NCBI GenBank assembly: GCA_964017235.1 | Contig: OZ024936.1 | Location: forward strand, 16,034,496-16,098,495 | Source: Sabellastarte sp. h YS-2021 | Taxonomy: Eukaryota > Annelida > Polychaeta > Sabellida > Sabellidae | DNA: 64,000 bases | Direction: 5' to 3' | Shown here: positions 3,885 to 64,000 of the stretch, piece by piece | How positions within the stretch are numbered: the stretch's first letter is position 1 | Layout: each line of letters begins with the position of its first letter | The notes under the pieces: generated by a model | The model's database searches: none | What the model saw: only the letters and a program-made list of their open reading frames with translations | Told to the model about the DNA's origin: nothing | Translations under genes and position numbers: made by a program

Positions 3885-5626
3885 CTATAACTAGACCTAT
3901 CACATCGGAGAACCGATGCAAATTGTATCCACCAGAAGAAAACTCACCAAAGCCATTCTAACATCGCTTAACCTTGAAGGAGAAGCCCAAGGTGAAATCT
4001 GACCATATCAAACGATTCTTAGCCCATGATTTCCTATACGTTGGTGTGACACTGCAAACCTCTAGGAATACGAATAAGCAAGATATAAACACTAATTTTG
4101 GCAATCCTCATTTGACCTTGAAAGAGGGGCCAAAGGTCAAATCCGATCACACCAAAAGATTCCCAGCCCATGATTTCCTAGATTTTGGTTTACCATTCCA
4201 AAGCTCTAGGACCAATAATAAGCGAGTTATAAGCACTTTTAAGTTTGGCTATCCTCGTTTGACCTAGAAGGAGGGGTCCAAGGTCAAATCTGACCACACC
4301 AAAAGATTCCCGGCCCATGATTTCCTATAGTTTGGTTTACCATCCCATAAGCACTTTTAAGTTTGGCTATGCTCGTTTGACCTTGAAGGAGGGGTCCAAG
4401 GTCAAATCCGACCACACCAAAAGATTCCCAGCCCATGATTTCCTATAGGTTGGTTTACCATCCTAAACCTCTACGACCAATAATAAGCGAGTTATAAGCA
4501 CTTTTAAGTTTGGCTATGCTCGTTTGACCTTGAAGGAGGGGTCCAAGGTCAAATCTGACCACACCAAAATATTCCCAGCCCATGATTTCCTATAGGTTGG
4601 TTTACCATCCCAAACCTCTAAGACCAATAATAAGCGAGTTATAAGCACTTTAAGTTTGGCTATGCTCGTTTGACCTTGAAGGAGGGGTCCAAGGTCAAAT
4701 CCGACCACACCAAAAGATTCCCAGCCCATGATTTCCAATAGGTTGGTTTACCATCCCAAACCTCTAGGACCAATAATAAGCGAGTTATAAGCACTTTTAA
4801 GTTTGGCTATCCTCGTTTGACCTTGAAGGAGGGGTCCAAGGTCAAATCCGACCACAGCAAAAGATTCCCAGGCCATGATTTCCTATAGGTTGGTTTACCA
4901 TCCCAAACCTCTAGGACCAATAATAAGCGAGTTATAAGCACTTTTAAGTTTGGCTATCCTCGTTTGACCTTGAAGGAGGGGTCCAAGGTCAAATCCGACC
5001 ACACCAAAAGATTCCCAGCCCATGATTTCCTATAGGTTGGTTTACCATCCCAAACCTCTAGGACCAATATTAAGCGAGTTATAAGCACTTTTAAGTTTGG
5101 CTATCCTCGCTTGACCTTGAAGGAGGGGTCCAAGGTCAAATCTGATCACACCAAAAGATTCCCAGCCCATGATTTCCTATAGGTTGGTTTACCATCCCAA
5201 ACCTCTAGGACCAATAATAAGGGAGATATAAGCACTTTTCATGACTGCAAAGAAAGGCCTGTGGCGGCCATCTTGTTTTTCAAAATGAGGCCAAAAATAT
5301 TCCCAGTCAAGATTTTATAATGAGGAACATATCCTGCGAATTTGAGATCTCTACCTATAATACCCTTTGCTCTAGAGGGCCACCAATAGCCCTTATTTAA
5401 AGTCGAAAAACGCCCGTGGTGGCCATCTTCTTTTTCAAAATGAGGCCAAAAATATTCCCAGGCAAGATTTTATGGCTATGAATATATCCTACAAATTTGA
5501 GAAGGCTAGCTATAATACTTTTTTCGTTAGAGCGGTAACGGTGAAATCTCTCTACACACTGCGGCGGCGGCGGCGTAACGAAGTCAAATCCATAGTATCC
5601 ACCGAATAGCATCCGGTGGATACAAA
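3885..5626 (+). mobile_element. Hairpin-capped array element, GTATCCACC end type (copy 1)
   Basis: The 5' end has the hairpin CATCGG-AGAA-CCGATG (3903-3918), then GTATCCACC (3925-3933). The 3' end is a near-perfect hairpin made of the same motif and its complement (GTATCCACCG...CGGTGGATAC, 5595-5623), preceded by a GGCGGCGGCGGCG run. Between them are about nine roughly 147-bp monomers and a unique segment with GGCGGCCATCTTG and a second GGTGGCCATCTTC copy. There are no open genes, so the element is non-autonomous. The architecture recalls bivalve pearl-type or Helentron-related (HINE) elements; that classification is inference. Confidence 0.75.
3966..5240 (+). repeat. About 147-bp monomer array inside copy 1
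   Basis: GACCTTGAAGGAGGGG and its variants occur at about 4120, 4260, 4378, 4527, 4672, 4820, 4966 and 5113, mostly 146-148 bp apart; one unit of about 118 bp is shortened. Each monomer contains CCAATAATAAGCGAGTTATAAG and the inverted pair TTTGACCTTG / CAAGGTCAAA around an 11-base spacer. The inner monomers are nearly identical and the outer ones diverge, as expected for arrays evolving by unequal exchange. Confidence 0.85.
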
Positions 5627-5932
5627 TAGAGTTTCACCAATAAAATAAAATCAATAAACTTTTTACAGTACTTCATAAGGTGCAATTATATCATTTTAAC
5701 TACGAATCAATGCCTCAACTGGCCATAAATCTCACAATTTATACACTTAAAGTCCTGAAAAACATTAACTTTATTTCTGTCGTCACTTCATCGGAAATGT
5801 ACAAGTGCTGCCAAAGACAAGTAAATATTGATTAAGAGTCTGTGTTCTGGTTTGTGCCAAACTAAAGTTTGTGGCAAGTTACAATGTCAAGCAGTAAATT
5901 GAAGGCTGACCATATACAGATGGAATCCATGA

Positions 5933-6050
5933 AGAATGCCCATCAGGTACTATGCCCATCAGAACAAAGGCCATCACCAGCAAAATTATTAATGGGCAAA
6001 GTTCCTGATGGATATTGTTCTGATGGGCATTCTTCCTGATGGGCATTCTT
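5933..6050. repeat. Foldback repeat just downstream of an ORP exon
   Basis: About 35-base arms (5933-5968 and 6014-6050) are complementary. Both are built from two copies of a GAATGCCCATCAG-type word. On the minus strand the palindrome begins about 28 bases after the splice donor of exon 6079-6176. Bases 5627-5932 hold nothing else I can identify. Confidence 0.7.
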
Positions 6051-6078
6051 CTGTACACTATACAGATGGGACACTGAC

Positions 6079-6176
6079 CTGGTCAACTCATAGGTTTCTC
6101 CCAGTAGAGGGTTAAAGGGTTTCCCCACACGGTCCCAGTTTGAGGCGGCACTCGACACTGCAAACGCTGCCACATA
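6079..6176 (-). CDS. OSBPL: ORP exon: lipid-transfer (ORD) fingerprint segment
   Basis: On the minus strand an acceptor (TTTTCACAG) precedes TATGTGGCAGCG, and the donor follows as ACCAG|gtcagt. The 98-nt exon encodes [14 protein letters not shown], then [13 protein letters not shown], the best-known OSBP-family fingerprint, ending ELT and two bases of the next codon. In the family this segment forms part of the lid and barrel that bind sterol or PI4P. It joins exon 10232-10366 in phase 0 (RME|YVAAF). The expected next exon, with the EQVSHHPP-type motif, was not found between here and base 1. This is the most 3' ORP exon visible. Confidence 0.92.
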
Positions 6177-7706: not shown

Positions 7707-8087
7707 GTCACATGAAGATACTGCCTTAAGCAGTCAGAGATCAACATCTGGTAAACTTATATCCCATAACAGATATACGAGTATATTATGAATATCAAGT
7801 TTTTCTTTAGTAATACGTGAATTGTCTCAAAAGGCTTTTTCACATAAATCTGAGTCTTAAGAAAGACTTTACATAAAGAGAAGGATAAGCCTTGTATTTA
7901 CCTACCTAATTCTATAGAGCACGCAATTACACACCACCTACACACAGTTATCAGTACAAAATGTCTGATAATCTCATATTTGTCAGTTAATCAAGCCTAA
8001 TAACTTGCATTCTAGCACTGAATATAATTATTACAATAAAAGTTCAAAGTGAAGAGGTCAAATAACATTCACAACAAGATCACTCGG

Positions 8088-8336
8088 AGAGTGCATATCT
8101 CTGCAAAGGCATGTATTTTAAAAATGGATCAATAATATGAGAATAGAAAAATCTGGATCTTTGATTGTATCCAGGCAGTGATCCGGATGACTCTCAAAAC
8201 TTAATGGGTTCTAATTTGGACCAAGACCCATCTTCTCAGTTTTTTCATGAAAGATTCAATCATTAATATTCCTAACAAACAAACAGACAAAATGACAAAC
8301 AGTCAAACAAAACGGTCATAAAATTAACACCTCCAT
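8088..8336 (+). mobile_element. Hairpin-capped short element, CCTCCGCC end type (old copy)
   Basis: It starts with CACTCGGAGAGTG (stem CACTC/GAGTG) and contains GGATCTTTGAT, CCAGGCAGTGATCCGGATG and ACAAACAAACAGACAAA. It ends in ACACCTCCATTAG, a decayed form of the 3' CCTCCTTGGCGGAGG hairpin seen intact at 25181-25199. Confidence 0.6.
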
Positions 8337-8435
8337 TAGCCCATGTAACAAATACATGACTCACCTCAATCCTCTGTCCCAGATTTGCAAACTGTGTTGC
8401 TTGCTGTAACAGGGTGTTACACACCCATCCACATG

Positions 8436-8696: not shown

Positions 8697-8697
8697 G

Positions 8698-14515: not shown

Positions 14516-14527
14516 AATACAATAACT

Positions 14528-15590
14528 AGATTGGGCCAACTCGGCGCCAACATATCCCCAGATAGGTCATCACTCACGCCACAGGTTTTGATTGGCAATT
14601 TTTTATTTAATCCATTTGTTGTATGCCATAAATATTGGGAAAAGTTATATGAACTTCAGCACATCAATCTACTAAGTTTATATCTTCCCAAGGAAGATGG
14701 TGTATCCCCAGACGTCGAATACATAACTCAACAGATCATATTTTCAATCTTCCTGCAATGATAACTCTGAACCTATTTTCAAAGTATTTAAATGATTGAT
14801 GATTGAATGTCCATTCTAAATTAATATTCTCAAAAGAGCATATCTGTTTCTATATTTGTTGACAAATAAAATATTATTTTTAACTCAACTCATCATACTT
14901 TTCAATCTTCCTGCAAAGGGTAACTCTGAACCTATTTTCAAAGTATTTAAATGATTGATGATTGAATGTCCATTATAAATTCATAATTCCAAAAGCGTAT
15001 CTCTGTTTCTATATTTGTTCACAAATAAAATATTATTTAAAAATCATATATTATTTATATTATTATTTTATTATATTATTTTTAGAATTTGCATTGTTTT
15101 TCAGTTATTCATTTCCTCAATTCCTATATATGTGGTCCATATATATGCAACCTAAATATGTGACACAATCTCAGTTCTGACTCCCTTTGTCTTAGATAAT
15201 TAGATAATGAAGCAAACACCACCTCCCACCCCCACCCCACCTCTCTCCCCTTCTCCACACCTCTCTCACTATTACAGAAGATCTGTATACCTTTGTTTAT
15301 TTAGTGTCACTCAATAGCTGGAGGTCCCAGAGGTGGGTGGGGGATGGGGGGGTGGGACTACAAAGAGATGCTGACCTTAAGGTGGCCATAAGTTCTTTAT
15401 TATTGGGAGTTTAAGGTCACCTTAAAATAGGGATCTTCCTTTGGGCATCCTTAACATGTGTACCAAGTTTGAAAAAAAAATATTAATCCGTTTTTGAGTT
15501 ATCGCGTCCACAAGAAAATTTCTACTGCGGCGGCGGCGGCGCGACAGACCTGAATCCAATATATCCCCGACTTTCGTCTGGGGATATAAT
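14528..15590 (+). mobile_element. Hairpin-capped element, TATCCCC end type, without array (copy 1)
   Basis: The 5' end is TTGGGCCAACTCGGCGCCAA, then CATATCCCCAGA. The 3' end is TTGAGTTATCGCGTCCACAAG, a GGCGGCGGCGGCGCG run, and a hairpin TATATCCCCGAC-tttc-GTCTGGGGATATA (15560-15588). The body holds a roughly 150-bp direct duplication (CAATCTTCCTGCAA at about 14750 and 14900), TA-rich DNA, and complementary CCACCTCCCACCCCC / GAGGTGGGTGGGGG tracts. Confidence 0.75.
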
Positions 15591-15700: not shown

Positions 15701-18700
15701 ACTAGATTGGGCCAACTCGGCGCCAACATATCCCCAGACAGGTCATCACTCACGCCACAGGTTTTGATCGGGAATTTTGTAAAACATAATTACCCATTAT
15801 TATATGAACTTCAGCACATCAATCTACTCTGTTTATATCTTCCCAAGGAAGATGGTGTATCCCCAGACGCCGAATACATAACTCAAATTATATTTTCAAT
15901 CTTCCTGCAATGATAACTGTAAACCTATTTTCAAAGTATTTAAATGATTGATGATTGAATGTCCATTCTAAAATAATAATCCCAAAAGAGCATATCTGTT
16001 TCTATATTTGTTGACAAATAAAATATTATTTTTAACTCAACTCATCATACTTTTCAATCTTCCTTCAAAGTATTTAAATGATTGATGATTCAATGCCCAT
16101 TCTAAAATTCATAATCCCAAAAGCGCATATCTGTTTCTATATTTGTTCACAACTAAAATATTATTTAAAAAAAAATTATTTATATTATTATTTTATTATA
16201 TTATTTTTAGAATTTGCAAATTGTTTTCAGTTATTCATTTCCTCTATACCTATATATGTGGTCCATATATATGCAACCTAAATATGTGATACAATCTCAG
16301 TTCTGACTCCCCTTTGTGTTATATGTAATGAAGCCCACCACCTCCCAACCCCACCCCTCACCCCTTCTCCACACCTCTCTCACTATTACACAAGATCTGC
16401 AACCCCATTGAGTTCTTTGTTTCTCATCTGATATCATTAAATACCTTTGTTTATTTAGTGTCACTCAATATAGCTGGAGGTCCCAGAGGTGGGTGGGGGG
16501 AATCCGGGTGGGGGATGTGGGTTGGGACTACAAAGAGATGGACTGCTACAGCATAAATGGTAAACAAACAATCTATATAAAAGGGGTACTCAAATACAAA
16601 AAGAATTGAGAATTTTAAGTATGTGATTATCAACTGAAATGAGTTCATAACTGTAGGAGCTGTGTCAAAATTAACTGAGGCACGTTGAATAAAACTGGGC
16701 TAGTTGAGGGTAAAAAATCCCATAGTTTTACTACATAAGGATATAATTTCATTAATATTGGGACTTAAAGCTCACTTAAAGTGTCCATTTTGTCTACTTG
16801 AATATGTTTAACCAGTTTCATTTTAAAAAGTTAAAAACTCAGCAAGCAGAGGTATAACACAGAAAAATAAGTTCTTAAAAGACTAAGATAGCCATAACAT
16901 TATTAATATTCAAAATTTAAATAGACAGGCATTTCCTTTTAAAAATTCAAAGATTTCAGCTCTATAAGCCACATAGTTTGACAGTTACTGGGCTTTAAAG
17001 TGGCATAATGTCCATAAATTGGGTTTCTGTGGGCATTTTACAATTGTTAAAGAGACCTTAGCAATTAAACTACAGATCTGAAACTTTTTGGGGGACATAC
17101 ATAACAAACAAAAATTATATATAATACAGTTTAAGACTTGTCACACTAAGCATTTCCAAATAACAGGGTAAAATACGGAAAAAATGTCAAAAAAGGCACT
17201 TGGGCGAGTGTGTATGGCACTCATACACAGGTTAAATGTCTACTAAAAACCTTGATTTTCGGCATATGTAAAAAAGACATAATAATGCATTCCCAGATGG
17301 GATTTCAGCTCCATTAATCACATAGTTTAACAGTCACAGGGCTTAAAGGTGGTAAAAAGTCCAAATATTGGGTCTCTGTGGGCCTTTTAGAGATCTTGAT
17401 GTGGCTTTGAAATTAAAGCTTCAGACTTAAAATTTGTTACATACTAAGATTACACATAGAATATGTATCTAATAAAGTTTGAAACTTCTCAGACTTACCA
17501 TTTCCAAGTTACAGAGCAAAATATGTGAAAAATGTCTTAAAAGGGTCACTCAGGTGGGTGTTTAAGGTCCTCATACACAGGTTAAATGTCTACTTGAAGC
17601 CTTGATTTTTGGCACATGTAAAAAGAACATAATAATGTATTCCCAGATGAGATTTCAGCTCTATCAGTCACATAGTTTAACAGTCACAGGCCTTAAAATT
17701 GGCAAAAAGTCCAAATACTGGGTCTTTATGGGGCCTTCTAGAGACCTAAATGTGGCCTTCAAATTAAAGCTTCAGGCTTAAAATTTGTCACATACTAAGA
17801 TTACACATAGAATATGCATCTAATACAGTTTGAAACTTCTTAGACTTACCATTTCCAAGTTACAGGGAAAAATATGTGAAAAATGTCTAAAAATGGTCAC
17901 TTGGGTGGGGATTTATGGTCCTCATACACAGGTTAAATTTTTGGCACATATAAAAATAACATACTAATATCTTCCCAGATAGGATTTGAGCTCTATCAGT
18001 CACATAGTTTGACAGTCACAGGGCTTAAAAGTAGCAAAAAGTCCAAATATTGGGTCTTTGGGAGCCTTTTAGAGACCTCAATTTGACCTTCAAAATTAAA
18101 GCTTCAGACTTAAAATCTGTTACATACTAAGATTACACACAGAATATATATCTAATACAGTTTGAAACTTCTCAGACTTACCATTTCCAAGTTACAGGGA
18201 AAAAGATGTGAAAAATGTCTTATAAGGGTCACTCGGGTGGGTGTTTATGGTCCTGATACACAGGTTAACTGTCTATTAAAGGCCTAAATGTTGGGGCACA
18301 TATAAGAAAACATATAGATATATTCCCAGATGATATTTAACTTAGATGAGAGACATAGTTTGAAAGCTATAACAGTGCTTGAAAGTGGCAAAAAGTGCAT
18401 AAATTGGGTCTCTGTGGGCACTTTTGAGACCTTAAGTCGACCCCTTTAGGTAAACCTACAGCCCTAAAATTTTCTACAGACAAGGATTACATATCAAAGT
18501 TATACCTAGCGCAGTTTGAGACTCATCAGAATTGCCACTTCCAAATTATAGGGCAAAATATGTGAAAAGTATAGCAAAAAATCCCTAAGTGGGGGTATTT
18601 ATGGGCCTCAAACACAATTTTCTCCTCAACTTAAAGTCGTGATTTTCGGCACATGTACTAAGAACATATTAGTGTGTTGTCAGGTAAAATTTCAGCCAGC

Positions 18701-18970
18701 TGAGCATCATAGTTTGTGACCTACAGGGCTCTAAGTGGCCAAAAGTCCAATTTCTGACCTTAAGGTGGCCATAAGTTCTTTTTTACTGGGAGTTTAAGGT
18801 CACCTTAAAATTGGGATCTTCCTTTGGGCACCCTTAACATGTGTACCAAGTTTGAAAAAAAAATATTAATTTGTTTTTGAGTTATCGCGTCCACAAGGAA
18901 ATTTCTACGGCGGCGGCGGCGCGACGGACCTGAATCCAATATATCCCCGACTTTCGTCTGGGGATATAAT
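15701..18970 (+). mobile_element. Hairpin-capped element, TATCCCC end type, with array (copy 2)
   Basis: It shares the same 5' and 3' ends and left body as the copy at 14528. After the shared GGGACTACAAAGAGATG it carries about 2.2 kb of tandem repeat, absent from copy 1, before the shared CTGACCTTAAGGTGGCC segment. The 3' hairpin is at 18940-18968 and again follows GAGTTATCGCGTCCACAAG and a GGCGGCGGCGG run. No coding frame. Confidence 0.78.
16740..18740 (+). repeat. About 350-bp tandem array (about 6 units) inside copy 2
   Basis: Marker TTCCCAGATGRGATTTCAGC and its variants fall near 17290, 17640, 17972 and 18323, with diverged units near 16930 and 18672. Each unit contains CACATAGTTTRACAGTCACAGG, AAAAGTCCAAATA, AAATTAAAGCTTCAGACTT and a CATACACAGGTTAAATGTCTA segment. 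Edge units are the most diverged. Confidence 0.82.
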
Positions 18971-22472: not shown

Positions 22473-23266
22473 AACTAGACCTAGCGCATCAGAGAACCGA
22501 TGCAAATTGTATCCACCGTAAAGACAATGCACCAAAACCTCTAGGACCAATAATAAGCGAGTTATAAGCACTTTTAAGTTTGGCTATCCTCATTTGACCT
22601 TCAAGGAGGGGCCCAAGGTCAAATCCGACCACGCCAGAAGATTCCCAGCCCATGATTTCCTATATGTTGGTTTACCATCCCAAACATCTAGGATCGATAA
22701 TAAGCGAGTTATAACCACTTTTAAGTTTGGCTATCCTCGTTTGACCTTGAAGGAGGGGTCCAAGGTCAAATCTGACCACATCAGAAGATTCGCAGCACAT
22801 GATTTCCTATAGGTTGGCTTCACATTGCAAACCTCTAGGACCAATAATAAGGGAGATATAGGCACTTTTAAAGTCCGCTATGTGGGTTACTTCGGCACTC
22901 CGTGGATGACCTTGAGTTAGGAGCTTCAAGGTCAAATGTGTGCAAGGTTGTAGAGGACATGTATTTGTGTCATACATATCACCTATGAAGAGATTCAACC
23001 TTCTACCTATGAGGAACAGCCAGTAGAAAAATGTAGATTATTTTCAAAGAAATGCTCGTGGCGGCCATCTTGTTTTTCAGAATGAGGCTATTTTCCTTCC
23101 CAGAGAAGCTTACCCCCCCAATGAAGATATCCTGCAAATTTGGTGAACCTAGCTGCTGTTGTTTTCCTCTTAGAGCGTTAATGCCGAAAATCTCTCTACG
23201 CGCGGTGGCGGTGGCGTAGCGAACGCTAAACCAAAGTATCCACCGGATGCTTCCGGTGGATACAAA
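22473..23266 (+). mobile_element. Hairpin-capped array element, GTATCCACC end type (copy 2)
   Basis: The 5' hairpin is decayed (CATCAGAGAACCGATG), followed by GTATCCACC. The 3' hairpin GTATCCACCGG-atgctt-CCGGTGGATAC (23236-23263) has a perfect 11-bp stem. Inside are about two monomers of the array seen at 3966-5240, then a divergent unit with TGACCTTGA...TCAAGGTCA, then a GGCGGCCATCTTG segment and CGCGGTGGCGGTGGCG. Confidence 0.78.
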
Positions 23267-24098: not shown

Positions 24099-24928
24099 GC
24101 AGTGATCCATATCTCCGCCCAAATCTAATCATATGTTCCTCGTGTCCTTCTCGACCAGTCATCAGGTTTGTCACCTATGCGAGTGGAACACTCACAGAAG
24201 TGACGTCCTATAATTATATGCCAAACTTGCTATCCCACCAAGTCAATCAGAATTTCAAAACGTGTACAGAGAGGTTTGGCACTTGCATATGCTAGATGTT
24301 AGTTTAACAGATATTTTTACAGTATCTCTATGTAAAAAGTCAGTGTGTAAGGGTACATTTTTATAAAGTTATAATATATGTCTGAATTACAGGGTACATT
24401 TGCCTTAAGCAAGGTAACTGGACTGATAAAATGAATGCAATACAAAAACATGGTAATCAGACAACCTATTGAAATGCCAGCCTACATTTTCATAATACAA
24501 AGATAAAAGAGAGAAACTGACATTTCATCCTATCAATTCTACTGACTTTAAGGATTAAGCAAACGTAATTGTCACACACAAACATTTAACCATACATTCA
24601 CGCACACATCGATCCAAACCAAAGTACATTGCACAAAAATTCAGATACATGCACATCATTGAGACAGAAGACTTCATCAATGGTATTGATTGTAAGAACA
24701 CCTGGAGTTAAGCGTGAAGATTTTGATTGCCCTTATTTTTCAATCAGTAAGGTCTACATGTTTAAAGTTCATAACTATCCATTGACATATTTGGACAGGT
24801 AATGTAATGAAATAAGATTCCACATGACTTCTGTTATCAGTAACAAAGTTGAAGAGTACTCAGAGTAAGCCTGTGGTCAGATAACTGAATGTTAATTCAT
24901 AAAAAGAGACATTTTAGAATAAAACAAG

Positions 24929-25200
24929 AGCATTCAAAGAGTGCAGACCTCCACCAAGGTATGTATGATTTTTAAAAACTAGCTCAGTAAGACGTAAATG
25001 GGAAAATCTGGATCTTTGATAATTATGTGCATCCAGGTGGTGATCCGGATCATTCTCAAAATTCAATGGGATCGAAGTCGGACCAAGACCTATCTTCTTA
25101 ACTTTTCTCCATGATGATCCAACCAGTAGTAATTGTGTAATCCTTCCAACAAACAGGCAAACAAACGTTTATGAATTTAATACCTCCTTGGCGGAGGTAA
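24929..25200 (+). mobile_element. Hairpin-capped short element, CCTCCGCC end type (best 3' end)
   Basis: 5': GCATTC-AAA-GAGTGC hairpin, then AGACCTCCACC. 3': TACCTCC-ttggc-GGAGGTA hairpin (25181-25199). The body has GGATCTTTGATAATTATG, GGTGGTGATCCGGATC and CAAACAGGCAAACAAACG. Its plan matches the larger array-bearing elements but it has no array. Confidence 0.72.
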
Positions 25201-25980
25201 CTACAGAGAGATACATACATTTCAGGAATGGAAATGAGTTCATAAAACTGAATACACAGATAATAGAAGTTTGGCTTTAACTAAAATCTGTATAACATGT
25301 CTCATTAGATGTACTGGTATATATATATGCACTCATACAATAATGTCATCTTTGTAATATACATTTTTTGAATATGTCATTAAGTAGGGTTCAAGTATTT
25401 TCAAATAGACACACTAAATCTTAACTTTATTTGTAATTCAATAGAGGTTGATAACCTAACATTTTATGCAATAATAAACTGCAAAAAATTTGAAAACAGA
25501 AACTCAATTTGTTATATGGAGAAATACTTCATCATTCATATCGCAACTCAATAGTATTCTAGCATGAAGTATCTGTTTTTCCAATTTGATGATACATCCA
25601 GAAAATTAATTCTTAGCCCTGTATCCATTTGGCAGAAACAGACATAATGTCTATTTTATCACTAGAAACTTCAACATAATTCTCTTTAAATCCCTTTTAA
25701 TTAATTTATATAACAAATGCACAATATTCCTCCTATCACACACGAATTATCCGGGGTTACTGATGACAGCAGTGTGTATGTGTATGTTTTGGTGACCCAC
25801 ACTCAACATGTTTTCGTCCCATAATGCATCTCTACCAATAAAACTAAATCAATCTTTATATTTTTGTTACTAGCCTTTCCTTAGAGCTAACTAGAAGCTT
25901 AATGTCCATATAACGTATGTATCAGAAATAAATGTGGCAATCAATGTCTCGACTCTTACCTCAGTGCTAGTGGGTTCAAG

Positions 25981-40646: not shown

Positions 40647-40819
40647 AACGAAAAAGATGAACTGACGTCACTCTGTCTGGACAGGAAGCAAGTATGATGC
40701 GCCACCTAGCGAATGCACACTACTGACCGGTCCTGCCGGTATTATATACAGGACGTCTTTTTCTGGCGTTTGGCGGGACCGGTCGCGCCGACCGGTAAAG
40801 CAATTGTCCATTGGATAGG
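40647..40819 (-). repeat. DIRS right inverted terminal repeat
   Basis: Complement of 34643-34815. The element continues to about 40838 (TGTATTAACACAATAAAA), a short extension matched by the internal complementary region. Confidence 0.9.
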
Positions 40820-40977
40820 ATGTATTAACACAATAAAAACACTAATTTTTGCACATTCTGAAAATTTTAACCTGGGCCTTAATTCTCAACATTCTTAAAC
40901 TTAGTGTCACTCTTAATCTTGGGATTTGCTGAGAAAACAAAGGACTATTTATTTATAAAATTTAAACAAAAAAGAAA

Positions 40978-44140: not shown

Positions 44141-44221
44141 TGTTGCTTCTGTTACTTTGTGTTATACGCTATTACATTTAGCATGAACTTGCGAGGAACT
44201 TTTACCACACAAATAAAAAAA

Positions 44222-45592
44222 TAGCATCAGAGATGCCCGTACCCCACAGCCTAGGGAAATATTTTTAACACCATGAGATATAGAAATACTGTATTAGTAC
44301 AAAGCGTAGGATACTATCAGAGCACTGTCAGTTATATAAAGGTCCAAACAATGTTTAAATAGGGAAAATAATATCTAAGAGAAAGATAATGCATGTAGTC
44401 TTTATCTACACCTGGCATGGCCGAATTATGGTTTAGATGTTTTTAATATTACCATGCATACAGAAGTGGTAATACATTCAATGAATGCTTATGTGTGGTG
44501 TTGGAGCAAAATCAGTGGCTCATTTGATGAAATTCCATCTGTTACAATGGGAAATTGTAAAAGAAAAATTCTTAATGAATTCTAATATGACTTTAACAGT
44601 GCTTAATCTGCATCACAAGACAGACCCAAAGGTGCAACAAGATTTTAAAGGTCAAGGTCACTACGACAAGGTCAAAGGTCAAATCAAGGTCACACCATGA
44701 TGCTGCACACCTACAACCCCTAACCAATGTCCCTACCAAGCATCAACTTCCTACACCTTATGGTTTCTGAGATATAGCCCAGACAAGATTTTATAGGTCA
44801 AGGTCCTACGGCAAGGTCAAAGGTCAAATCAAAGTCAGGCCATGACGTTACACACCTACACCCCCTAACCAATGTTCCTACCAAGTATCAACTTCCTACA
44901 CCTTACGGTTTCCGAGATATAGCCCAGACAAGATTTTATAGGTCAAGGTCACTACAGCAAGGTCAAATCAAGGTCAGACCATGACGTTACACACCTACAC
45001 CCCCAACCAATGTCCCTACCAAGTATCAACTTCCTACACCTTACGGTTTCCGAGATATAGCCCAGACAAGATTTTATAGGTCAAGGTCACTACAGGAAGG
45101 TCAAAGGTCAAATCAAGGTCACACCATGACATTGCACACCTACACCCCCTAACCAATGTCCCTACCAAGTATCAACTTCCTACACTTTACAGTTTCCGAG
45201 ATATAGCCTGGACAAGATTTTTTAGGTCAAGGTGACTACAGCAAGGTCAAAGGTCAAATCAAGGTCACACCATGACGCTGCACATCTACACCCCCCCCTA
45301 ACCAATGTCCTTACCAAGCATCAACTTCCTACACCTTAAGGGTTTCCGAGATATAGCCCGGACATGATTTTCAAACTCAAGGTCACCGCGGCAAGGTCAA
45401 AGGTCAAATCAAGGTCACACCATGACGTTGCACACCTACACCCCTTAACCAATGTCCCTACCAAGTATCAACTTCCTACACCTTGCAGTTCCTGAGATAC
45501 AAGCCAGACAAACTTTTCTCACCGCCCGTCCATCCATCCGGACACCATGGGTGAAAACAATACCCCGACAGCCCTTAAGGGCTGTGGAGTAA
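44222..45592 (+). mobile_element. Hairpin-capped array element, TACCCC end type (copy 1)
   Basis: 5': perfect hairpin GCATC-AGA-GATGC (44224-44236), then CGTACCCC. 3': TACCCCGACAGCCC-ttaa-GGGCTGTGGAGTA (45561-45591), an imperfect hairpin made of the same motif. About six monomers of 137-150 bp lie between, marked by CAAGGTCACACCATGACGTT at about 44690, 44836, 44973, 45117, 45264 and 45414. Each has CTACACCTTACGGTTTCCGAGATATAG-type sequence. GAGATACAAGCCAGACAAAC precedes the 3' end. Confidence 0.78.
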
Positions 45593-46222
45593 AAACTGAC
45601 AAATTTTAATTTTATTTTATTAAAAAGCTTCAGATTAGGCACAACAGGGATAAAAAATATCAAAATTATTACAACAACATACATAGTAGTATTAACTTTG
45701 CACTGGACTCAGATATGTAACCACAGTGAATTTCATCTGTGTAATTTAAGTTGCTAATTGTCCGCCACGTATGTCTGCTAATGGGAAATTCTAGTTACTA
45801 ACTAAACACTGATTCAGAAATGGTTAGCATAATTTGGCCACCAGATAGAATTGCTTGCATTAGCCAATGACTAACCAGTCCAGAACTTATGAGTTTCTGA
45901 ATTATAATATCTTTTTTGACGGGAAATATAGGCCAGGAACCAGACTAGAGGAAATACTGACAACATAACATGCTCCATGGACAAAAATGATATGATGGAT
46001 CTTGAGATGCTAGAAAAGTAAAAAATACATGCAAAAACTTTGGGGGTTATTTGCAAATATATGTCATATTTATATTTTAGCATGATATACACTCAGATAA
46101 AACACTTTGAACTGGTACCTTTCAGGTCGTGATTCTAAAGATTGTATAAAGATTGCATAAAAACCTATATTAGGGGATACACAAGAAAATAATTAAATAT
46201 TGGTGCTGACTACTGCTTGAGT
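45593..46222. other. ORP intron, no supported feature
   Basis: AT-rich sequence without recognised elements. 46384-47154 is similar. Confidence 0.4.
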
Positions 46223-47270: not shown

Positions 47271-47807
47271 GACATTTTCTGTATGACATTGTTGTAGATG
47301 ACTGATGAAGACTTTAGATGAACAGCAATCCTTCGTCAGTCACCAAGCTTTAGTGGGGTGATCAAAAGATCTAACATGGAATGAGGAAGATTTTGTCAAG
47401 GTAATGGCGTACGAACATCTGCCACAGTTGTAAGACTGTCAGCGACTGATGAAGAGTGTGATAAGACAACCCACGAACAATGACAATCAGTAAAGGTTAA
47501 TTCACAGTGATTCTCCCTATCACAAAGACAGTATTGTGGCAGATGTAGACACATTACTAAGACTCTGGATCCTTGAAAACATATTCATTGTCACCCGCAG
47601 TGACATTTCAGATCTTTACAGATTGTCCTACAGATTATGACGACTGATACAAAGACAGATTGGACACATCACTGCGGGTGTACTACAGGCTTGACAGGTT
47701 AACTACAGCACGGGGAGACAATAAAAATAGTATTAAATAATGAATGAAGATAGAATTCAAGATGATAACTGACAATAAATACTTTCAAACATTTAAAATA
47801 TAAACTA

Positions 47808-50362
47808 GTGGATCGCTTGCAAAACAAAGCGATCGTTTTTGCATGGCAAAAACAAAGCGTCCAGAAAAGGAGAAATAATAGCAGCTTAATCATGTAAGAA
47901 AGTTCTGCTTATAGCTCAAAAAAGCCAGAATATAGGAGAAGTGGTTCTTGGGCAGGGTAAATATCTTGGATACAGTGTGTTCCAAAAATTTTGATGAAAT
48001 TGCTGTCTTGCACAGTTAAGAAGACAGAGGCAATTTGGTGTTTTGCACTTTTTGTCATAAATTTGAAAATTGACAATGACCCCCATTTTTGGGAAGGGTA
48101 AATTTTTTGGGGAAAATTGGGTAGTTTGCTTACATATCCAAAGAAATTGCTCTATCTTGCATGGTTAAAGGGAGAGGAGCAATATTGTGTTGTGCATTTT
48201 TGTTGGGAATTAAGGATTGGTAATACATGTGAAATGGCTAGGTGATTAGCGAGATAGGTTGCATAAATATTGAAGAAATTTTTTACTTAAAAGCGGTCCA
48301 AGGCTTGGGTGAAACTTGGTGAAAATTATAATTGGCTAGCAGATCCCATAGCTTCAAAATTTAGTTGCCCATACAAATTTCAACTGGCCATACTCGAGTC
48401 AATATGATAACTATATAATTTGTAGTCCAATTCCTACATCAGTGAATTCTCTCTATGTCACACTGTTTTCGAGATACAAGCATTTTTTGTGATTTGCAAT
48501 TTTTGCAAAAAATTTGAAAATTCAAAATGGCCAGCATTTTTGACGGGACAAATGTTTTTTTGAAAATTGGGCCAGCTATTCAGCAGAGTAACCTTGCGGG
48601 TCAAAAATTTCATTGAAATTGCTCTATTGTTGAAACTTGGAAAGGCTAGTCTTCACAGATAACCTGTGGGTCAAAGATTTTGCCGAATTCGCTCTATCTG
48701 GCAAGATTTTCAGCAGTGTTACACTAAGGGTCAAAAATTTTGTCAAAATCGCTCTCTCTAGCTCGGTTTTCAACATATAAGCATTTTTGAAGAAAATTCA
48801 AAAATTCAAAATGGCCGCCATTTTTGGCAAGTGAAATATTCATTGAAACTTAGAAAGGCTAGTCTTCACAGATGCCCTGTTGGTAAAAAATCGCTCTATC
48901 TCGCACGGTTTTCGACATACAAGCATTTTTGTGTTTTGCAATTGTTGTGAAAAATTCAAAATGGCCGCCATTTTTGGCGGGACAAAAACTTTTTGAAAAC
49001 TGGGTCAGCTACTCAGCAGAGGTACCCTGCGATTTAAAAATTTTGTCAAAATCGCTCTAGCACGGTTTTTAACATACAAGAATTTTTGTGTTTTGCATTT
49101 ATGAAAAAAATTCAAAAATGGCCGCCATTTTTGGTGAGTGAAATATTTGTTTGAAACTTGGAAAGGCTAGTTTTCAAAGATACCTTGTGGGTCAAAAATT
49201 TTGCTGAAATCCCACTAGTAAATTTTTATTTTATGAAGAAAATGGTTTCAAAAAGTACTCATATCACTTAGCACTGTTCTATATGTGTACCTTATGAACC
49301 TATATTTCCACTTTTGTGTTGTGCATTTTTTTTTTGAAAAATTCGAAAATAGAATATGACCCCCATTTCTGGGGAGGAGAACATTTTTGGAAAACTGAAG
49401 ACAGTAGTTTCTTTAGATACCCTGCGGGTCGAAAATTACGACGAAATCGCTCTATCTCACATGGTTAAGTAGAGTTTCTGTCCCATTGCCAATTGCTATT
49501 GCTGATGGTACGCTATGGTGAGGGACAGAGTTCCCATGTAGCTGTTTTCTGTGTAAATGTTTGAACTGTGAGAAATCATTGCAGTTACTTTTAAAAGTCC
49601 TTGTTATGTCCATATACTTGTATCCAGTTCGCAATGCATATGTTGTTCAACTAAACTGCTTTTACAAACCAGGAATTTCTTTTGTAGATAACTTTGTAAC
49701 ATTGAAGGTTTGTTTACATTTATAAAAATAGGTTCAAACATATACATACCAGTTTGATTGGCATGAAATATTAGTGAACAGCACATATATATACCTTAAA
49801 GAATGCAAATAAGACTTTATACTTGTGGTAATATGTGTACAAATATGCTGTTCAAAATTTGCAAAGAAAACAGGTATATGGGGACTCTGCCCCTCGTCAT
49901 TGTGTCCATCAGTTTTTCAATAGCAATTGGCGACGGGACAGAAACTCGGTCTAACGATTAAGGAGATACAAGCACTTTTGTGTTTACTCGTCAAGAAAAT
50001 TGTTGTAAATGCTTAATTAATCATCAATACCTCAGTCATTTTTTAACCTATCCCTGCCAAAATTTAATGTCACCAAGATCTTTAAATGAGGAAGGTATTT
50101 GCTAAATTTCAGGTGGATAGATAAAATGCTTCGTAAGTTATCACCCGAAAAAGGACGTCCCTCATGTGACCTCTCTGATTGGTGAAAATGTCATCGCAGC
50201 ATATTCAAAAAAAATTTCCAGGGCTACTGCATACACCTGCCAAGTATGAAAAGAATCTGCCTTATGGCTGCGAAGCTATTGCAAAAAGAAAATGCGGATC
50301 CGGCAGATCTGGCGGAGTCGCTTCTCCCATATACAAACAAGCGTCCCTCTTGGGACGCTTAA
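47808..50362 (+). mobile_element. Hairpin-capped array element, GCGTCC end type (long copy)
   Basis: 5': perfect hairpin GATCGCTT-gcaaaaca-AAGCGATC (47811-47834), then AAAGCGTCC. 3': AAGCGTCCC-tctt-GGGACGCTT (50339-50360), a perfect 9-bp stem. The interior has many irregular units of about 140-170 bp with GGGTCAAAAATTTTGTC, AAATCGCTCTATCT, CACGGTTTTCGACATACAAG and TTCAAAATGGCCGCCATTTT. The last kilobase has more degenerate units and GTAAGTTATCACCCG. No coding frame. Confidence 0.76.
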
Positions 50363-52454: not shown

Positions 52455-52475
52455 GAATCTGAATAACAAAGTTAG

Positions 52476-52715
52476 ACAAGAAAGTGCATACCTCTGCCAA
52501 GGCATGTCATAATATGGAAATCGCAAAATCCATATTTTTTTTACATCCAGATCACTCTCAAAATGTAATGGTGTCTAAGCTGGACAATGGCCCATCCTCT
52601 GATTTGTTTTTTTTTTCAGGAAGATCCAACCAGGAGTATTTGCTTAATCCTGCTGACAAACAAATGAGCAGACAAACAGACAGTCACAAAAATAACACCT
52701 GCTTGGCAGAGGTAA
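52476..52715 (+). mobile_element. Hairpin-capped short element, CCTCCGCC end type
   Basis: AAGTGCATACCTCTGCCAAGG at the 5' side (left stem eroded), the shared GATCACTCTCAAAATGTAATG and GACAAACAAATGAGC-type body, and the 3' hairpin ACCTGCTTGGCAGAGGT. Confidence 0.62.
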
Positions 52716-55003
52716 CAAAGACATAATATGTAATGTGTGTCTCACCTATGAACTGGCTTCGTTGGTTTAATAACTTTTGTCACAAAATATCCATGTTAAT
52801 TCAGAGCTATCCTGTCATTTTCTACGTTGCCGTGTAATTAATATCACAGTGCTGGAACAATTTACATGGCTCTATCATAAGCCGGAGACATGTTTTGGTA
52901 AAAAATGAAGAAAATTCTAAAACTTTCCAACTAAATCTGACTTGTATTTCCAGTTGATATTATGTAAAAAAAAAGTGTAAACAAACATAAGCATCATTAA
53001 ATCAAAGTGACGCTGCTACAAAACTTAATTGAGAGAAAAACACAGACAAATCCTCGTCACAGGATAGAACTTGATCACCACAAAAACAGTCACATAAACA
53101 ACACACACTGGAAAATCAGTGCAATTAAACTCTCTCAAACAGCCCACTGTTGATTCCGTTACCATAGATATTTAATCAGCTCAAATCACCCTTACTTTGT
53201 CCACAAACACAAACAGCTGTTTAAATCCTATTTGTTTACAGTCTCCTGTTAAGGTTGTGTTGTTTTGTTTTGTTGGGTTTTTTTTTATGGTCACTAATTC
53301 CTGATCAAATATCTCCCCTCCCGTTTTTTCATGTGTTCACACACATAGTATTCTGTATTAAGCCTCCCAAGTCTCTATTGTTACATTGTCTTCTACGCAT
53401 TGTCAACCAAGTTCTTAGGACACAAAAGTCAGTTTTAGAAACAGATTGACAAATATATGGCGAACAAATGTATTAAACCAGCATTAATATCCTGCATGTT
53501 GTAATATGCTTGGGATGTTTTAGAAGTGTATATATCCACAATTTTACACATAATTATACACAATGAGGATAGAGCATCTATTTTCTATGAATTCACAAAG
53601 AAAGGTGGCAAGGATAAGTTAAGTGTGCCTGAGATGGTTGAAGTCACAGTGTACTATAGGTTTGATAGCCATATATGTATATACAGTTCAATAAACAGAA
53701 GCATGTCAAATTTCATCTCCTGTGTGTACTGTGTACTATGTACTATCTGTTTTATATGAGAGCCCAAAACAGACAAATGCCAGTTAGAATATCAAAGAAG
53801 TACTCAATGCCCTTGAACAGGCTCTGTGTCAGCTGACTTTGTGTTTTGAGCTTCAGAGTACCAGGGAAAGTAGAAAAGGACACAAAATTTGTGTACTGCA
53901 AAATTAATGGTATTCAGGGCAAAGTACAAAGTTAACTGCTATGGAAAAAATAGCTGAATATACATTCCAACAAAATGTTGTAAATGCCAGAGTTTTCAAG
54001 TTACAAGTGATTTCCTCAATATGGAAGGTACTGAAAAGTCAAAAAGTAGCTATTACCCACTCAGCTATGGGGATAGACTCTTAAATTATTCACCATGTTG
54101 AAGCTGTGGAAAAAGTAGCTGAACAACATATTTCAACAAAATGCTCTAAATGCAATAATTTTCAAGTTTTAAGTGACTATAAGTGACAAAATAGCTATTG
54201 CTGAGCAATGCAATGAGCTACAGGTCTGCAATTTTAATATCATGTTATAGCTGATCCAAAAGTACGTGAATAACATATTTTGATAAATTACTGACAATGC
54301 AATAATTTTCCAAGTTACAAGCGATTTACTTAACAGTGAGAACCTGTTTTATTTCTTGCATTAGCGAACCAGCGTCGGTATCAGTCACTTTCTGCCCTTG
54401 TCATAATGCTGGCATCATTGCCTATATGTACAGATATTGTAATGCTTTATACCTCCAGGTATTGCCAAACTTCTGTCAGTAAACTTAGCAATACTGTGGT
54501 ATTCTGAGACTTGTATGAACTTTCATGGCTACCCACAGGGAATGCTTTAACTGTTCAAAATCCCTGTGTGTGGGTTTGGAGGGTTTTCATTTGCAGTTAA
54601 AATAGTCGTGGCATCGTTTACAGAAGTCAAAACCGGTTACAGAGGCTTTGAAACAAAACGAAATCCAGTATTTTTATGCTTGTTCTGTGCATTGAAAATT
54701 ATTCGCAGGCGTACATGAGCAAAACTTGCAAATGGAAAGTGGCTTTCGCGAGATATTATTAAGTATATAAAAATGATTTTTACTCAATATAAAGTAAAAT
54801 TGTGACATATTTTATAAAATATGTATATTTTTTGTCGTTTCTATGAAGTATTAGCCATTAGAAAGCCTAAAATAATAACTTTTACAATATTATTAACCGG
54901 TTTCCAAATATTCTTTGCGGATTTCGTTTTTTCTACTAAAACGAAACGATATTCCACATACCGAAAAACCAGGTTAACAACACTAAGTTAAAATGCTTAT
55001 TAC
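52716..55003. other. ORP intron, no supported feature
   Basis: AT-rich. Short open frames lack splice support. A duplicated GAAAAAGTAGCTGAA / TTCAACAAAATG motif near 53950 and 54110 suggests a weak old direct repeat. Confidence 0.4.
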
Positions 55004-58545: not shown

Positions 58546-58926
58546 ATCACGTGATTTAACTTAATAGTATGGCTGTCAGTACTAAAGTGTCTTGAGACTA
58601 GTTTTGGTCTATTATTAGGGGGGAATTAAGAACCGATGCTCTCGTGTTCATAAATCCCATATATGGTCGAAATAGATTGAGCAGATAGTATGTTATATGG
58701 TATCAGACGATATCCTCTAGCTGCACTCTCAGAAGTGTTTTTCTTATTTGCAAATAATAGTCTCAACAATTATAATTTAGTTGTGACTGCCAGAAGACAT
58801 CAGAACTCTTAAAGCCATTGTTCATTTCACCCAATCATTAGGAGAAACACTTTTATTCAGAAGAACCTTCGATTATTGACACTGAGACTGAGATCTGCTC
58901 CTGTTTATTTTTAACAAGCATAAAAT

Positions 58927-59213
58927 AAGAGCACTCAGAGAGTGCAAACCCCCGCCAATTCATGTACAGTTTATATGAGAATCTTATCTCTCTTTTTCGA
59001 AAGCAAAGCAGCTGAATAATAAGTAATTGGAAAAGTCCAGACTTTTTTATATTCTTTGAATCCAGATGATCCAGAGCAACATCAAAATTTAATAGGATCT
59101 ATGTTGGACCAATATCCCAAGGTCTTCAGGTCCTACCAGTAGAATTTGTGTAATCCTGCTGACTGACTGCAAACAAACAGACAAACAAATGAATTTAATA
59201 CCTGGAGGTATTA
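58927..59213 (+). mobile_element. Hairpin-capped short element, CCTCCGCC end type (best 5' end)
   Basis: 5': perfect hairpin GCACTC-AGA-GAGTGC (58931-58945), then AAACCCCCGCC. 3': AATACCT-GGAGGTATT (about 59198-59213). The body keeps AACAAACAGACAAACAAATG. Confidence 0.72.
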
Positions 59214-60177: not shown

Positions 60178-60625
60178 AACCAGCTGCTTATTTGTACTGT
60201 CCATTTAGATTATAAGCTGAACTGGACAGCTATTTGGACAAAGTACAGTGAAAACCCCAATGAAAATTCAAGCACATACTCTTGTAGAACACACCACCCC
60301 AGATATATAATCATTCAGCCTTCATTGTTTTAGCAAGGACCTTATAATATTAAAGTAAGTGAGATAACAATGTTTTCAGATAGTCCAGGTTTTCGAAGTA
60401 TTGATCAGGCAATTATCAAGATGACAAATATTCGTAATTTTTTTTTCCTTAATACAATATCTTGCTTGATATCAGTCAATGTTAGCAAAATAAGTGTTAC
60501 AATAATGAGAGAATGTAACCGCAGGTGAAAAGTTGACGAAATTTTGTGTTTTCTCATCAAAAACAGTACTATACTGTGAAATGATCATATCAATTTTGAG
60601 GCTTAGAGTTTATCATAGATGATAA

Positions 60626-61492
60626 AACAGCATCAGAGATGCCCATACCCCACAGCCTGGGGAAATAGTTTTCAACACCATGACATATAGAAGTAGTGAA
60701 ACACTACAAAGATCGGGATACTTTCAGCAGTGTCACTTATATAAAGGTCCAAATAATGTTTAAGTAGAGAAAATAATATCTCAGAGAAAGAAAATGTATG
60801 TAAAGATAAAGTACTAAAACAAGACAAGTAAATAGCAAGATGATAGCATTAATCAGTAAACTAAAAATTATGAAGCTGGAAAATTTATTAATTGGAGAAT
60901 AGCTGTCAATGGAAATAGCATAATTATGTAAAAGTGCACATAATAATCAGTTGCAGCAATCCATATAGCCTTGTCATAAGAGAAAGACGTCTTAAATATG
61001 GTAGCTGAACAGACTTTGGCAGAGCAAAAAGGTCACACCATGATGCATACATACATTTACATACACCCCCTAACCAATGTCCCTACCAAGTGTCAACCTT
61101 CTACACCTTATGGAATCCAATAAATAGCCCAGACAAGATTTTATAGGTCAAGGTCACTACGGAAAGGTCAAAGGTCAAACCAAGGTCACACCATGACAAC
61201 GCACACCTACACCTCCTAGCCAATGTCCCTACCAAGTATCAACTTCCTACACCTTACGATTTCCGAAGTATAGCCCGGACAAGACTTTATGGGTCAAGGT
61301 CACTATGGCAAGGTCAAAGGTCAAATCAAGGTCACACCATGATGTTGCACACCTACATCTCCTAACCAATGTCCCCTCCAAGTATCAACTTCCTACACCT
61401 TACGGTTTCCGAGATATAGCCCAGACAAGATTTTATAGGTCAAGGTCACTACAGCAAGGTCAAAGGTCAAATCAAGGTCACACCATGACGTT
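60626..61492 (+). mobile_element. Hairpin-capped array element, TACCCC end type (copy 2, right end lost)
   Basis: The 5' hairpin GCATC-AGA-GATGC (60630-60642) and CATACCCCACAGCC match 44222. About three monomers follow (AAGGTCACACCATGA at about 61025 in part, 61185, 61330 and 61478). The element stops inside a monomer at CATGACGTTG, where LINE-like sequence begins. Confidence 0.75.
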
Positions 61493-62165
61493 GGCCAGTG
61501 AATTTATTATTACTGCCTTTCCCAGAACTGTGTTTTTTCTTCATTCCCACTTAAGCAATAAGTTCTGAAATAGATTGAGTTTTGGATCCCAATTTTTTTA
61601 TATGCACTTTTGACTGTCCGTTCCTACATAAACCCCAAGAATTTTAATTGTTTCAGTGTTGAATTTGATATGATGAAAATTTTTTGGATTGTTTCTCGAT
61701 GTTCCTAGCCATAGTCCTTCACATTTTTCCATATTTAATTTTAGTCCAGAAAAAACAGTGAAATCATGTATTATTTGAAGTGCATGGACTATGGAAGAAT
61801 TATTTGACATGGTCAATGTTGTGTCATCTGCATATTGCAGGACTCGTATTTCTGTATCTCCAATTTTAATACCGTCAATGTTTTTTGACATACGTAGTTT
61901 TTGTTGACAGGCATTCGACAGATAGGATAAATAAAAGTGCTGACAAAGGGCATCCTTGTCTAATTCCCTTTTCCATAGCTATCTTATTGGTTAACCATCT
62001 GCTATTTTTTATGATAAGGGATGGATCAGTATATATGATATTAATCCATTTTCAAAAAAAAAAATCCCCAAAGCCAAATTTCTCAACTGTTTTTTGCATA
62101 AATTTCCAACTGAGGCTATCAGAAGCTTTTTCAAAATCAAGCCCAATTACCGAACCAGGCCATAG
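61493..62165 (-). pseudogene. Non-LTR retrotransposon reverse transcriptase fragment
   Basis: Minus-strand RT blocks in order: GSVIGLDFEKASDSLSWKF (from about 62165), EKGIRQGCPLSALLF in another frame (about 61980), and LQYADDTTLTMSN with the catalytic YADD at 61823-61834, then SGLKLNMEKCEGLWLG. Past a frame change, GKAVIINSLA is the family's downstream block. It is missing both the endonuclease side and the 3' end, with at least two frameshifts. Family not assigned. Confidence 0.8.
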
Positions 62166-62765: not shown

Positions 62766-62872
62766 CTCTTCCTGCTGAGTAAACAGTGTGAGGCAGTGTC
62801 TGAGACTTGCACACATTTCCTGTGATGTGGACACCAGACAGTTCAGCTGCTGCCTCACCTCCAGTAATGTCA
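62766..62872 (-). CDS. OSBPL: ORP exon: coiled-coil segment
   Basis: The acceptor GGTTTTTCAG and the donor GAAGAG|gtgagt bound 107 nt, two bases plus 35 codons. It reads TLLEVRQQLNCLVSTSQEM, CASLRHC and LTLFTQQEE: heptad-like and similar in position to the helical region before the FFAT motif in OSBP/ORPs. Its first two bases complete a Val codon with exon 63646-63742. It ends in phase 0, matching exon 43756-43930. Confidence 0.88.
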
Positions 62873-63645
62873 CTGAAAAACCAAAAATGTTTCTTAATTT
62901 ACAACTTCAGCAATATGAGTGATTAAATCATAACAAAATACCCAAACATTACTACACATTCTTCTCTTATGATGAAGCTTTTGAGTGATGTCCCACTAGA
63001 TACTCACTGTATGACCTTTTGCAGAACAGGGTTTAAAACCTGTATTTTCCAGGTACAGTAGGTTCTAACGTTTTGAAATGTACAAAACATTTGCAGCAGA
63101 ATGATCAATTTTCAGTGATTTGGGTTTAATCTCTTTTGCCACCAACTGAGCAGTACTCAACTGTACCCAAGATAGAAGAGTGTACAGAGAGTTTTAGTTG
63201 TTAAAACACACACCACAAGCATTCCTCTTCATTAATAATGTCCTCATGCATAACATTTCGAACAACCCACTTCTAATATCCAACCATTTGTGTGCAAAAG
63301 AATCTGGAGAGTTAATAGAAGAACTGAAAACAGGAAAAGGTAGTTTAGCATCAAACAACATGAAATACAAATTTGGGGAGAGGGGATATCAGGTCATAAA
63401 ACGAACATTTGGGGAAGGTGAAATAAACAAGATTCTATTGTATTTGACCAGTGTATGAAGTCAACTGTCATATGTCACTGCATTATTTTGGGTGAAAACA
63501 ATAAACATTTAATATTCACTCTTAATAAATTACTTATTTAAGAGCAGAAATAACTGTCTAACAAAACTGTTTTGCTGTGCACGATCACAATCCTAAAATA
63601 TATCCAATGAGTCAGACAATTAAGATCTGTCTATAAGACGCGCAC

Positions 63646-63742
63646 CTTGTTTGCTGGGTGTTCTCTCGTCGGCCAGGGCACTGATAGATCCCGTCACTCG
63701 AGCCATCTGCTTCACTAGCACCTGGTGATGAGCTTCTGATGT
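63646..63742 (-). CDS. OSBPL: ORP exon: helical segment upstream of the coiled coil
   Basis: The acceptor ATTTTCCCAG and the donor AACAAG|gtgcgc bound 97 nt: 32 codons plus one base. It reads TSEAHHQVLVKQMARVTGS, then SALADERTPSKQ. Open frame, good splice sites and a matching phase with exon 62766-62872 support it. It is the most 5' ORP exon in the window; PH or ankyrin exons should lie to the right. Confidence 0.84.
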
Positions 63743-63904
63743 CTGGGAAAATACCAAAATGGATAATAATAGTAGAACTAGGGTCAGTCAGACAGTACAC
63801 ACCTGTGCTTGGGCCCAGAACCCTGCCAATAGTTGAATGCAATGATTACAAAACTTTCAAAACATTCTTGGATCCCGACAATGATAAGTATCACCACCGT
63901 AATC

Positions 63905-64000
63905 TGATCATCTGTTCCTAAAGCCATTGTTGACATTACCTGAAAATTTCATTAAACTCTGGCCATAACTTTTCAAATTTTTTGGCAAACAAATGCATGA
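63905..64000 (+). mobile_element. Hairpin-capped short element, CCTCCGCC end type (3' part, cut by window end)
   Basis: CCATTGTTGACATTACCTG, AAAATTTCATTAAACTCTGG, CCATAACTTTTCAAATTTTTTGG and CAAACAAATGC follow the conserved 3' body of this family. The terminal hairpin is beyond the window. Confidence 0.5.

Follow-up and report, generated by a model that had tools for sequence, protein, structure and literature searches.

What kind of element is bounded by two unlike hairpins, one of which carries a word that recurs, inverted, beside the other? The question is raised by a stretch of 64,000 nucleotides from the sabellid annelid Sabellastarte sp. h YS-2021 (GenBank assembly GCA_964017235.1, contig OZ024936.1, forward-strand positions 16,034,496 to 16,098,495; hereafter the window), in which a reading of the letters alone, here called the original prediction, had described six types of repeat built on one plan with different motifs. 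We conclude, with a probability of about 0.93, that these six families (T1 to T6) belong to the Helitron2/Helentron group as non-autonomous rolling-circle transposons, the elements known as HINEs. A Helentron/HINE affinity had already been guessed at, and the guess was right in kind, as the plan of the ends, the empty insertion sites and an autonomous parent in a seventh family (H7) indicate. The genome-wide counts given below are exact matches on both strands of the 1.786 Gb assembly (647 contigs), with reversed patterns as controls, and L-numbers designate loci fetched from the same genome for comparison.

Ends of the elements and their copies

T1 to T6 are repeated short mobile elements, and all of their named copies in the window lie on the minus strand. 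Read 5' to 3', each opens on TT, followed by a hairpin in which a word of 8-14 nt, the subterminal inverted repeat (subTIR), forms the first arm. The body comes next, in many cases a tandem array, and after it the subTIR again in inverted form, a further hairpin, either CTAG or CTTG (TATTTTT in T2) and finally TT. Both a 5' subTIR forming a hairpin 0-4 nt from the 5' end and an inverted 3' copy of it are present in seven families out of seven (T1-T6 and H7). A clear 3' hairpin is seen in T1, T2, T3, T4 and T6, a long-looped one in T5 and a weak one in H7, and the 3' terminus is CTAG in T1, T3, T4 and T5 and CTTG or TATTTTT in H7, T6 and T2.

When copies are aligned, similarity is lost right after CTAG TT in seven of the eight distinct T1 copies and in all five T4 copies, and T2 terminates in TATTTTT in 12 of 13 copies; the consensus ends stop at the predicted termini in these three families and do so loosely in T6. 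On their 5' side the aligned copies start with Ts, usually at least two, followed by the palindromic word. Because similarity stops where it does and the elements start with Ts and the palindromic word, the hairpin that the original prediction took for the 5' end is the 3' end, and vice versa; the Rep frame of H7 is oriented likewise, from the palindromic-word end to the CTCTTG end. Every motif quoted in the prediction occurs in the window, and the matching words proved longer than quoted in T2 (TACCCCACAGCC, 12 nt), T4 (ATATCCCCAGAC, 12 nt) and T6 (TACCTCCGCCAAGG, 14 nt). Both ends were found at nine of its ten named sites, the tenth being the T2 copy at 60626, which is without the far-end motif hairpin and whose array breaks off near 61493. 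The T5 motif hairpin, which had been placed at 33470, actually lies at 34467-34489, and near 33470 there is a single copy of the motif (33479) beside a different hairpin. The copies in the window are as follows.

3891..5625, minus strand: T1 copy a, a probable HINE; 3' end (hairpin plus CTAG) at 3891-3918, 3' subTIR near 3925, 147-bp array at 3958-5239, 5' palindromic subTIR at 5595-5623
22475..23265, minus strand: T1 copy b, both ends found
44217..45595, minus strand: T2 copy a; 3' end GCATC-TCT-GATGC-TATTTTT plus 3' subTIR, 145-bp array at 44637-45511, 5' hairpin at 45561-45590
60624..61493, minus strand: T2 copy b, 5'-truncated, without the motif hairpin
47805..50362, minus strand: T3; 3' end GATCGCTT hairpin plus CACTAG, 5' hairpin AAGCGTCCC-AAGA-GGGACGCTT at 50339-50360, with a related 5' hairpin in L004
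40978..41548, minus strand: decayed T3-related copy, missed in the original prediction
14526..15589, minus strand: T4 copy a, both ends found
15702..18969, minus strand: T4 copy b, 332-bp array at 16951-18435; an empty site was found for the related copy in L034
33441..34491, minus strand: T5; 3' end TGCTG..CAGCA hairpin plus CTAG, 3' subTIR at 33479, 147-bp array shared with T1 at 33517-34181, 5' hairpin at 34467-34489
24925..25201, minus strand: T6 copy a, both ends, 3' terminus CTCTTG
58926..59213, minus strand: T6 copy b, both ends, 3' word copy decayed
8075..8357, minus strand: T6-related copy, missed earlier, 3' end only (8075-8094)
52545..52716, minus strand: T6-related copy, missed earlier, 5' end only (52697-52714)
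36458..36590, minus strand: paralogous empty site for the T1 insertion of L002, inside a DIRS-like retroelement; 84.4% identity over 135 columns, junction spanned

These ends are abundant in the genome. The 16-mer of the T1 3' hairpin has 1,887 + 1,840 = 3,727 copies (control 0 + 1), the T2 3' pattern 5,965 + 6,048 = 12,013, the T4 3' pattern 3,510 + 3,627 = 7,137 and the T6 3' hairpin 418 + 462 = 880 (controls 0 for all three); the strict pattern for the T5 5' hairpin, a 25-mer, has six. A motif-blind scan for a hairpin, a distant inverted copy and a further hairpin gave seven matches in the window (two in T1, three in T4, two in no family) against one in total over 20 dinucleotide shuffles, and missed the T2, T3, T5 and T6 copies there. 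All three T4 matches used an internal module and not the true 3' end, one of them pairing the 5' end of one copy with the module of the neighbouring copy. Over the fetched loci the same scan returned one T1 match (L002), one T4-internal match (L034) and, in L033, low-complexity palindromes in a region inside its T2 copy, as well as a few further matches in L039, L044 and L070 that were left uncounted. Coincidence is rejected on the genome-wide counts against reversed controls and on the motif-blind scan against shuffles. The internal module of T4, a second 3'-like combination of word copy and hairpin, stands at 15866 and 14711 and is possibly an older, bypassed 3' end.

Insertion sites

The search for empty sites covered 24 both-ended rows, L042 and L044 entering twice each with the two H7 5' ends present there, and found three sites, two for T1 and one for T4. 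In L034 a T4 copy interrupts a Helentron reading frame that is uninterrupted at three other places (six matching loci, each place being represented by two overlapping ones). The T1 copy of L002 has inserted into a DIRS-like element, of which the window segment 36458-36590 listed above is an uninterrupted relative, and the T1 copy of L075 lies within a 147-bp array with uninterrupted units elsewhere. All three targets read A-TT, and after insertion TT stands on both sides of the element; this TT either belongs to one element end or is a 2-bp repeat, an ambiguity of 2 bp. More generally, an A precedes two or three Ts at 17 of the 19 true 5' ends of T1, T3, T4 and T5, once four further rows that were opposite-strand readings had been dropped. 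In two loci one element abuts another: about 10 nt or less separate a T1 3' end from a T4 5' end at L008:1500-1560, and an H7 3' end from a 5' end with a T5-like word at L045:2397-2460. It is, in these two cases only, as if element ends were favoured targets.

An inverted word at both ends and a body that is often a satellite-like array might also be expected of cut-and-paste miniature inverted-repeat transposable elements (MITEs) or of satellite fragments, with the hairpins as ordinary terminal inverted repeats; the bivalve element Pearl was, according to passages of PMC7492417, first called a MITE. The ends are asymmetric, however, in that only one of them carries a second hairpin, unrelated to the first; at the three empty sites nothing beyond TT is repeated, as fits HINEs; and in H7 the same plan brackets a Rep-helicase gene. 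On these grounds we reject transposons of the MITE or terminal-inverted-repeat kind and consider this explanation extremely improbable.

A second alternative concerns only part of the set, namely that T1, T3, T4 and T5 belong to canonical Helitron1, which would leave T2, T6 and H7 as the only Helentrons. Their CTAG terminus with a hairpin shortly upstream and the A before T at the insertion point speak in its favour, and elements with mixed Helitron/Helentron features have been reported from C. gigas (PMC7992393, as far as its passages describe them). Yet these families start with TT and not TC, and they have a 5' hairpin and subTIRs, which are absent from Helitron1 by the description in PMC3627910. 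We regard the split as rather improbable; canonical Helitron1 for the whole set is rejected, the 5' ends being TT plus hairpin instead of TC without one. Set beside the 3' CTRR of Helitron1, the termini are mixed, with CTAG in T1, T3, T4 and T5 and CTTG or TATTTTT in H7, T6 and T2.

An autonomous family and other Rep lineages

An autonomous Rep-helicase element with ends of this kind was found for H7, and none was identified for T1-T6. The H7 element in L036 has an open frame of 2,245 codons for Rep, a PIF1 helicase and a C-terminal endonuclease (Helitron_like_N 2.8e-25; PIF1 2.2e-27; Exo_endo_phos 3.9e-6 and 27.2 bits, above the cut-off, when the C-terminal part is scanned alone). GDFN and SDH motifs occur in the endonuclease part, and in Rep we recognize what we take to be the HUH (PHLH) and two-tyrosine (YIASYIMK) motifs. 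Three copies have in common the 5' start TTTTT-AGGYGGGTTG..CAACCCGCCT and the 3' end GCAACCCGCCT..CTCTTG, and the 5' palindrome shares 12 nt with the 3' copy. With four of the 13 aligned rows left out as the 5' palindrome read backwards, CTCTTG closes all nine true 3' ends and TT comes next in eight. The H7 5' hairpin has 812 + 754 copies genome-wide (control 0).

Six of the 12 fetched H7 loci contain short H7 elements, 386-1,042 bp long, that retain both ends; the other six have no 3' end inside the fetched stretch. L047 matches the two ends of the parent at 99.7% identity over 604 bp and 100% over 158 bp, L041 at only about 75% and 89%. Four different deletion junctions occur among the short elements (L042, L044, L045/L047 and L052), and these relatives are, judged by their sequences, internal-deletion derivatives of the parent; because the junctions differ, they arose at least four times. 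That the derivatives keep both ends suggests that the H7 ends suffice in cis. Tandem H7 5' ends are also frequent (L038, L039, L042, L043, L044): among the 100 matches listed there are 21 neighbouring pairs less than 2 kb apart, mostly 568-592 or 729-776 bp, and the sequence ahead of the second 5' end is constant in L038, L039, L042 and L043.

Searching the genome for Helitron_like_N gave at least 24 Rep places, which by DNA identity fall into roughly a dozen lineages in our own grouping (L012, L014, L015 and L017, for example, are 98.9-99.4% identical to one another). The lineage of L033/L079 is a second one with an endonuclease; its ends were sought and not found. Comparison of six Rep locus pairs (L010/L016, L021/L022, L018/L023, L020/L027, L024/L032 and L028/L029) gave no clean boundaries.

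The original prediction had imagined one enzyme that reads structure, so that a single Helentron would drive all six types. The plan and the TT flank are indeed common to types whose words differ, but with roughly a dozen Rep lineages in the genome several enzymes are equally possible; moreover, the short H7 derivatives carry the H7 word, as expected if the word matters, though this counts for little in loci that were fetched by that word. The single enzyme is not supported, and we find it quite improbable.

Word matching, bodies and published relatives

The longest exact match between 5' word and 3' copy is 11 nt in T1, 12 in T2, 8 in T3, 12 in T4, 8 in T5, 14 in T6 and 12 in H7, against a mean of 4.5 nt for swapped pairs. 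The claim that the motif at one end always matches the stem at the other is borne out as covariation between families, a family's own 3' copy being its best match in six cases out of seven, with T5 as the exception. When the pairings are permuted, the true one alone among 5,040 reaches the observed total, a test that is partly circular for T1-T6, which had been chosen for this very match; the circularity does not extend to H7, found independently through its protein, or to the letters by which the words exceed the quoted motifs. In T5 the 5' hairpin varies between copies, CCCC/GGGG or CCCT/AGGG, with the pairing kept.

Together with that circularity, several points weigh against assigning T1-T6 to the HINEs. 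The T5 5' word matches the T1 3' copy (10 nt, the largest swapped match) better than its own (8 nt), and the short own matches of T3 and T5 were reached by 16 and 6 of 2,000 shuffles. In the one complete T5 element the 5' hairpin is CCCT/AGGG and the 3' copy still CCCC: the third place lags behind the change in the hairpin. When the paired ends are folded as DNA, the joint 5'-3' duplex is the optimum in T2, T4, T6 and H7 and not in T1, T3 and T5, and the 3' hairpin of H7 is weak. T2 is without CTWG, and the terminus of T6 is loose, similarity ending after CTCTTG or CTTG in five of 11 copies. The strict T3 3' pattern occurs at one place genome-wide, the window copy itself, and support for this family comes from that copy, from a second one that is decayed and from a single related 5' end. 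The whole-protein scan of H7 gives an endonuclease match of 2.3e-4 and 21.4 bits, under the Pfam cut-off of 24.5, and among solved structures the endonuclease part found no match at a threshold of 0.01. Finally, the H7 word is unlike every T1-T6 word, and T1-T6 have no autonomous partner among the at least 24 Rep places, where ends are resolved for the H7 lineage only.

Taking T1-T6 as HINEs, they may, by analogy with the family, be driven by a Helentron enzyme. Its Rep protein (HUH, two-tyrosine) would nick at the 5' end and join, the helicase would displace one strand, and the 3' subTIR and hairpin would mark the stop; pairing of the 3' subTIR with the 5' arm, for which the folds give mixed support, could then open the 5' hairpin at the end of the round as a switch. 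Perhaps the words at the ends are free to change as long as 5'/5' and 5'/3' complementarity is preserved, with structure and strand pairing together as the basis of recognition; one Rep lineage might then serve several words, and a new word could come about through three coordinated changes, one at each place. T1, T3, T4 and T5 would be an intermediate class, with Helentron-type ends, a Helitron-type CTAG and insertion between A and T, and an autonomous partner of their own. As a whole we think this proposal unlikely.

The bodies tell less. The word GAGWTAT, said to be common to them, is in excess (47 occurrences against 18.2 expected), but because this excess comes largely from recurrence in tandem-array units it is weak evidence of kinship, and we reject it as strong evidence. 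Similarly, ATGGCGGCCAT, reported from several bodies, does occur five times, always on the minus strand, three of these being in the T3 body, one in the decayed T3 copy and one in the array at 9.1-9.8 kb. That array (9134-9838, 151-bp units) has the word GGTTTCYGAGATAT in common with the T2 array, and no element ends were identified for it. T5 (33517-34181) and T1 (3958-5239) contain the same 147-bp array despite their different ends, as if bodies and ends recombined as modules. Elsewhere in the window, a DIRS-like retroelement occupies 34598-40839, with a pair of inverted repeats (34626-34815 and 40647-40839) at 97% identity and frames that resemble reverse transcriptase and tyrosine recombinase. 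An open frame of 701 codons spans 19-2124, and its C-terminal part resembles a phytanoyl-CoA hydroxylase-interacting protein.

The common end plan was already published in 2013-2014. Helitron2, in the published description of Bao and Jurka (2013, PMC3627910), has two hairpins and asymmetric inverted repeats of 8-15 bp, the 5' copy inside the 5' hairpin and the 3' copy directly upstream of the 3' hairpin, with compensatory changes reported; the same authors proposed the switch, in which pairing between the 5' and 3' copies undoes the 5' hairpin as a round ends. By that description the plan is the same here, whereas the words are different and T1, T3, T4 and T5 add a CTAG terminus. For Helentrons and HINEs, Thomas et al. 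(2014, PMC4067079) describe, in the passages available, a palindromic 5' subTIR, a 3' subTIR plus palindrome, a T-rich target with no clear duplication, central tandem repeats, an endonuclease fused to Rep-helicase, and HINEs as deletion derivatives of the parent; all those features are matched here, the last two in H7. The proto-Helentron of the same source (5' TT, 3' CTAG, insertion between A and T, no endonuclease) is similar to T1, T3, T4 and T5 in their A-TT target and CTAG. Cg_HINE of Crassostrea gigas (Vojvoda Zeljko et al. 2020, PMC7492417), as excerpted, is alike in its satellite-like arrays between subTIR modules and in a GTCY-type microsatellite after the 5' end, which recurs in H7. 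The hybrid Helitron/Helentron elements of C. gigas are, by the portions of PMC7992393 that describe them, alike in a CTAG 3' end, subTIRs and a preference for insertion between A and T, but have a 5' TC in place of the TT and full 5' hairpin seen here.

The present analysis contributes the families themselves, the empty sites, the permutation test of the word match and the autonomous parent for one family. According to the excerpted text of PMC7492417, no autonomous element in Repbase could be related to any Cg_HINE, and a limited literature survey of titles, abstract starts and passages named no autonomous partner for mollusc HINEs; for H7, on the other hand, the autonomous parent lies in the very genome that carries the short elements. 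Working from the letters alone, the original prediction had recognized a plan that proved real and led to a parent element, and, unlike what those passages say of the Cg_HINEs, one HINE family is represented here by an open-frame parent and several deletion derivatives in one genome. With many families carrying different words side by side in one genome, the published switch model becomes testable by end swaps, and the arrays of HINEs have been proposed as one of the ways in which satellite DNA is spread.

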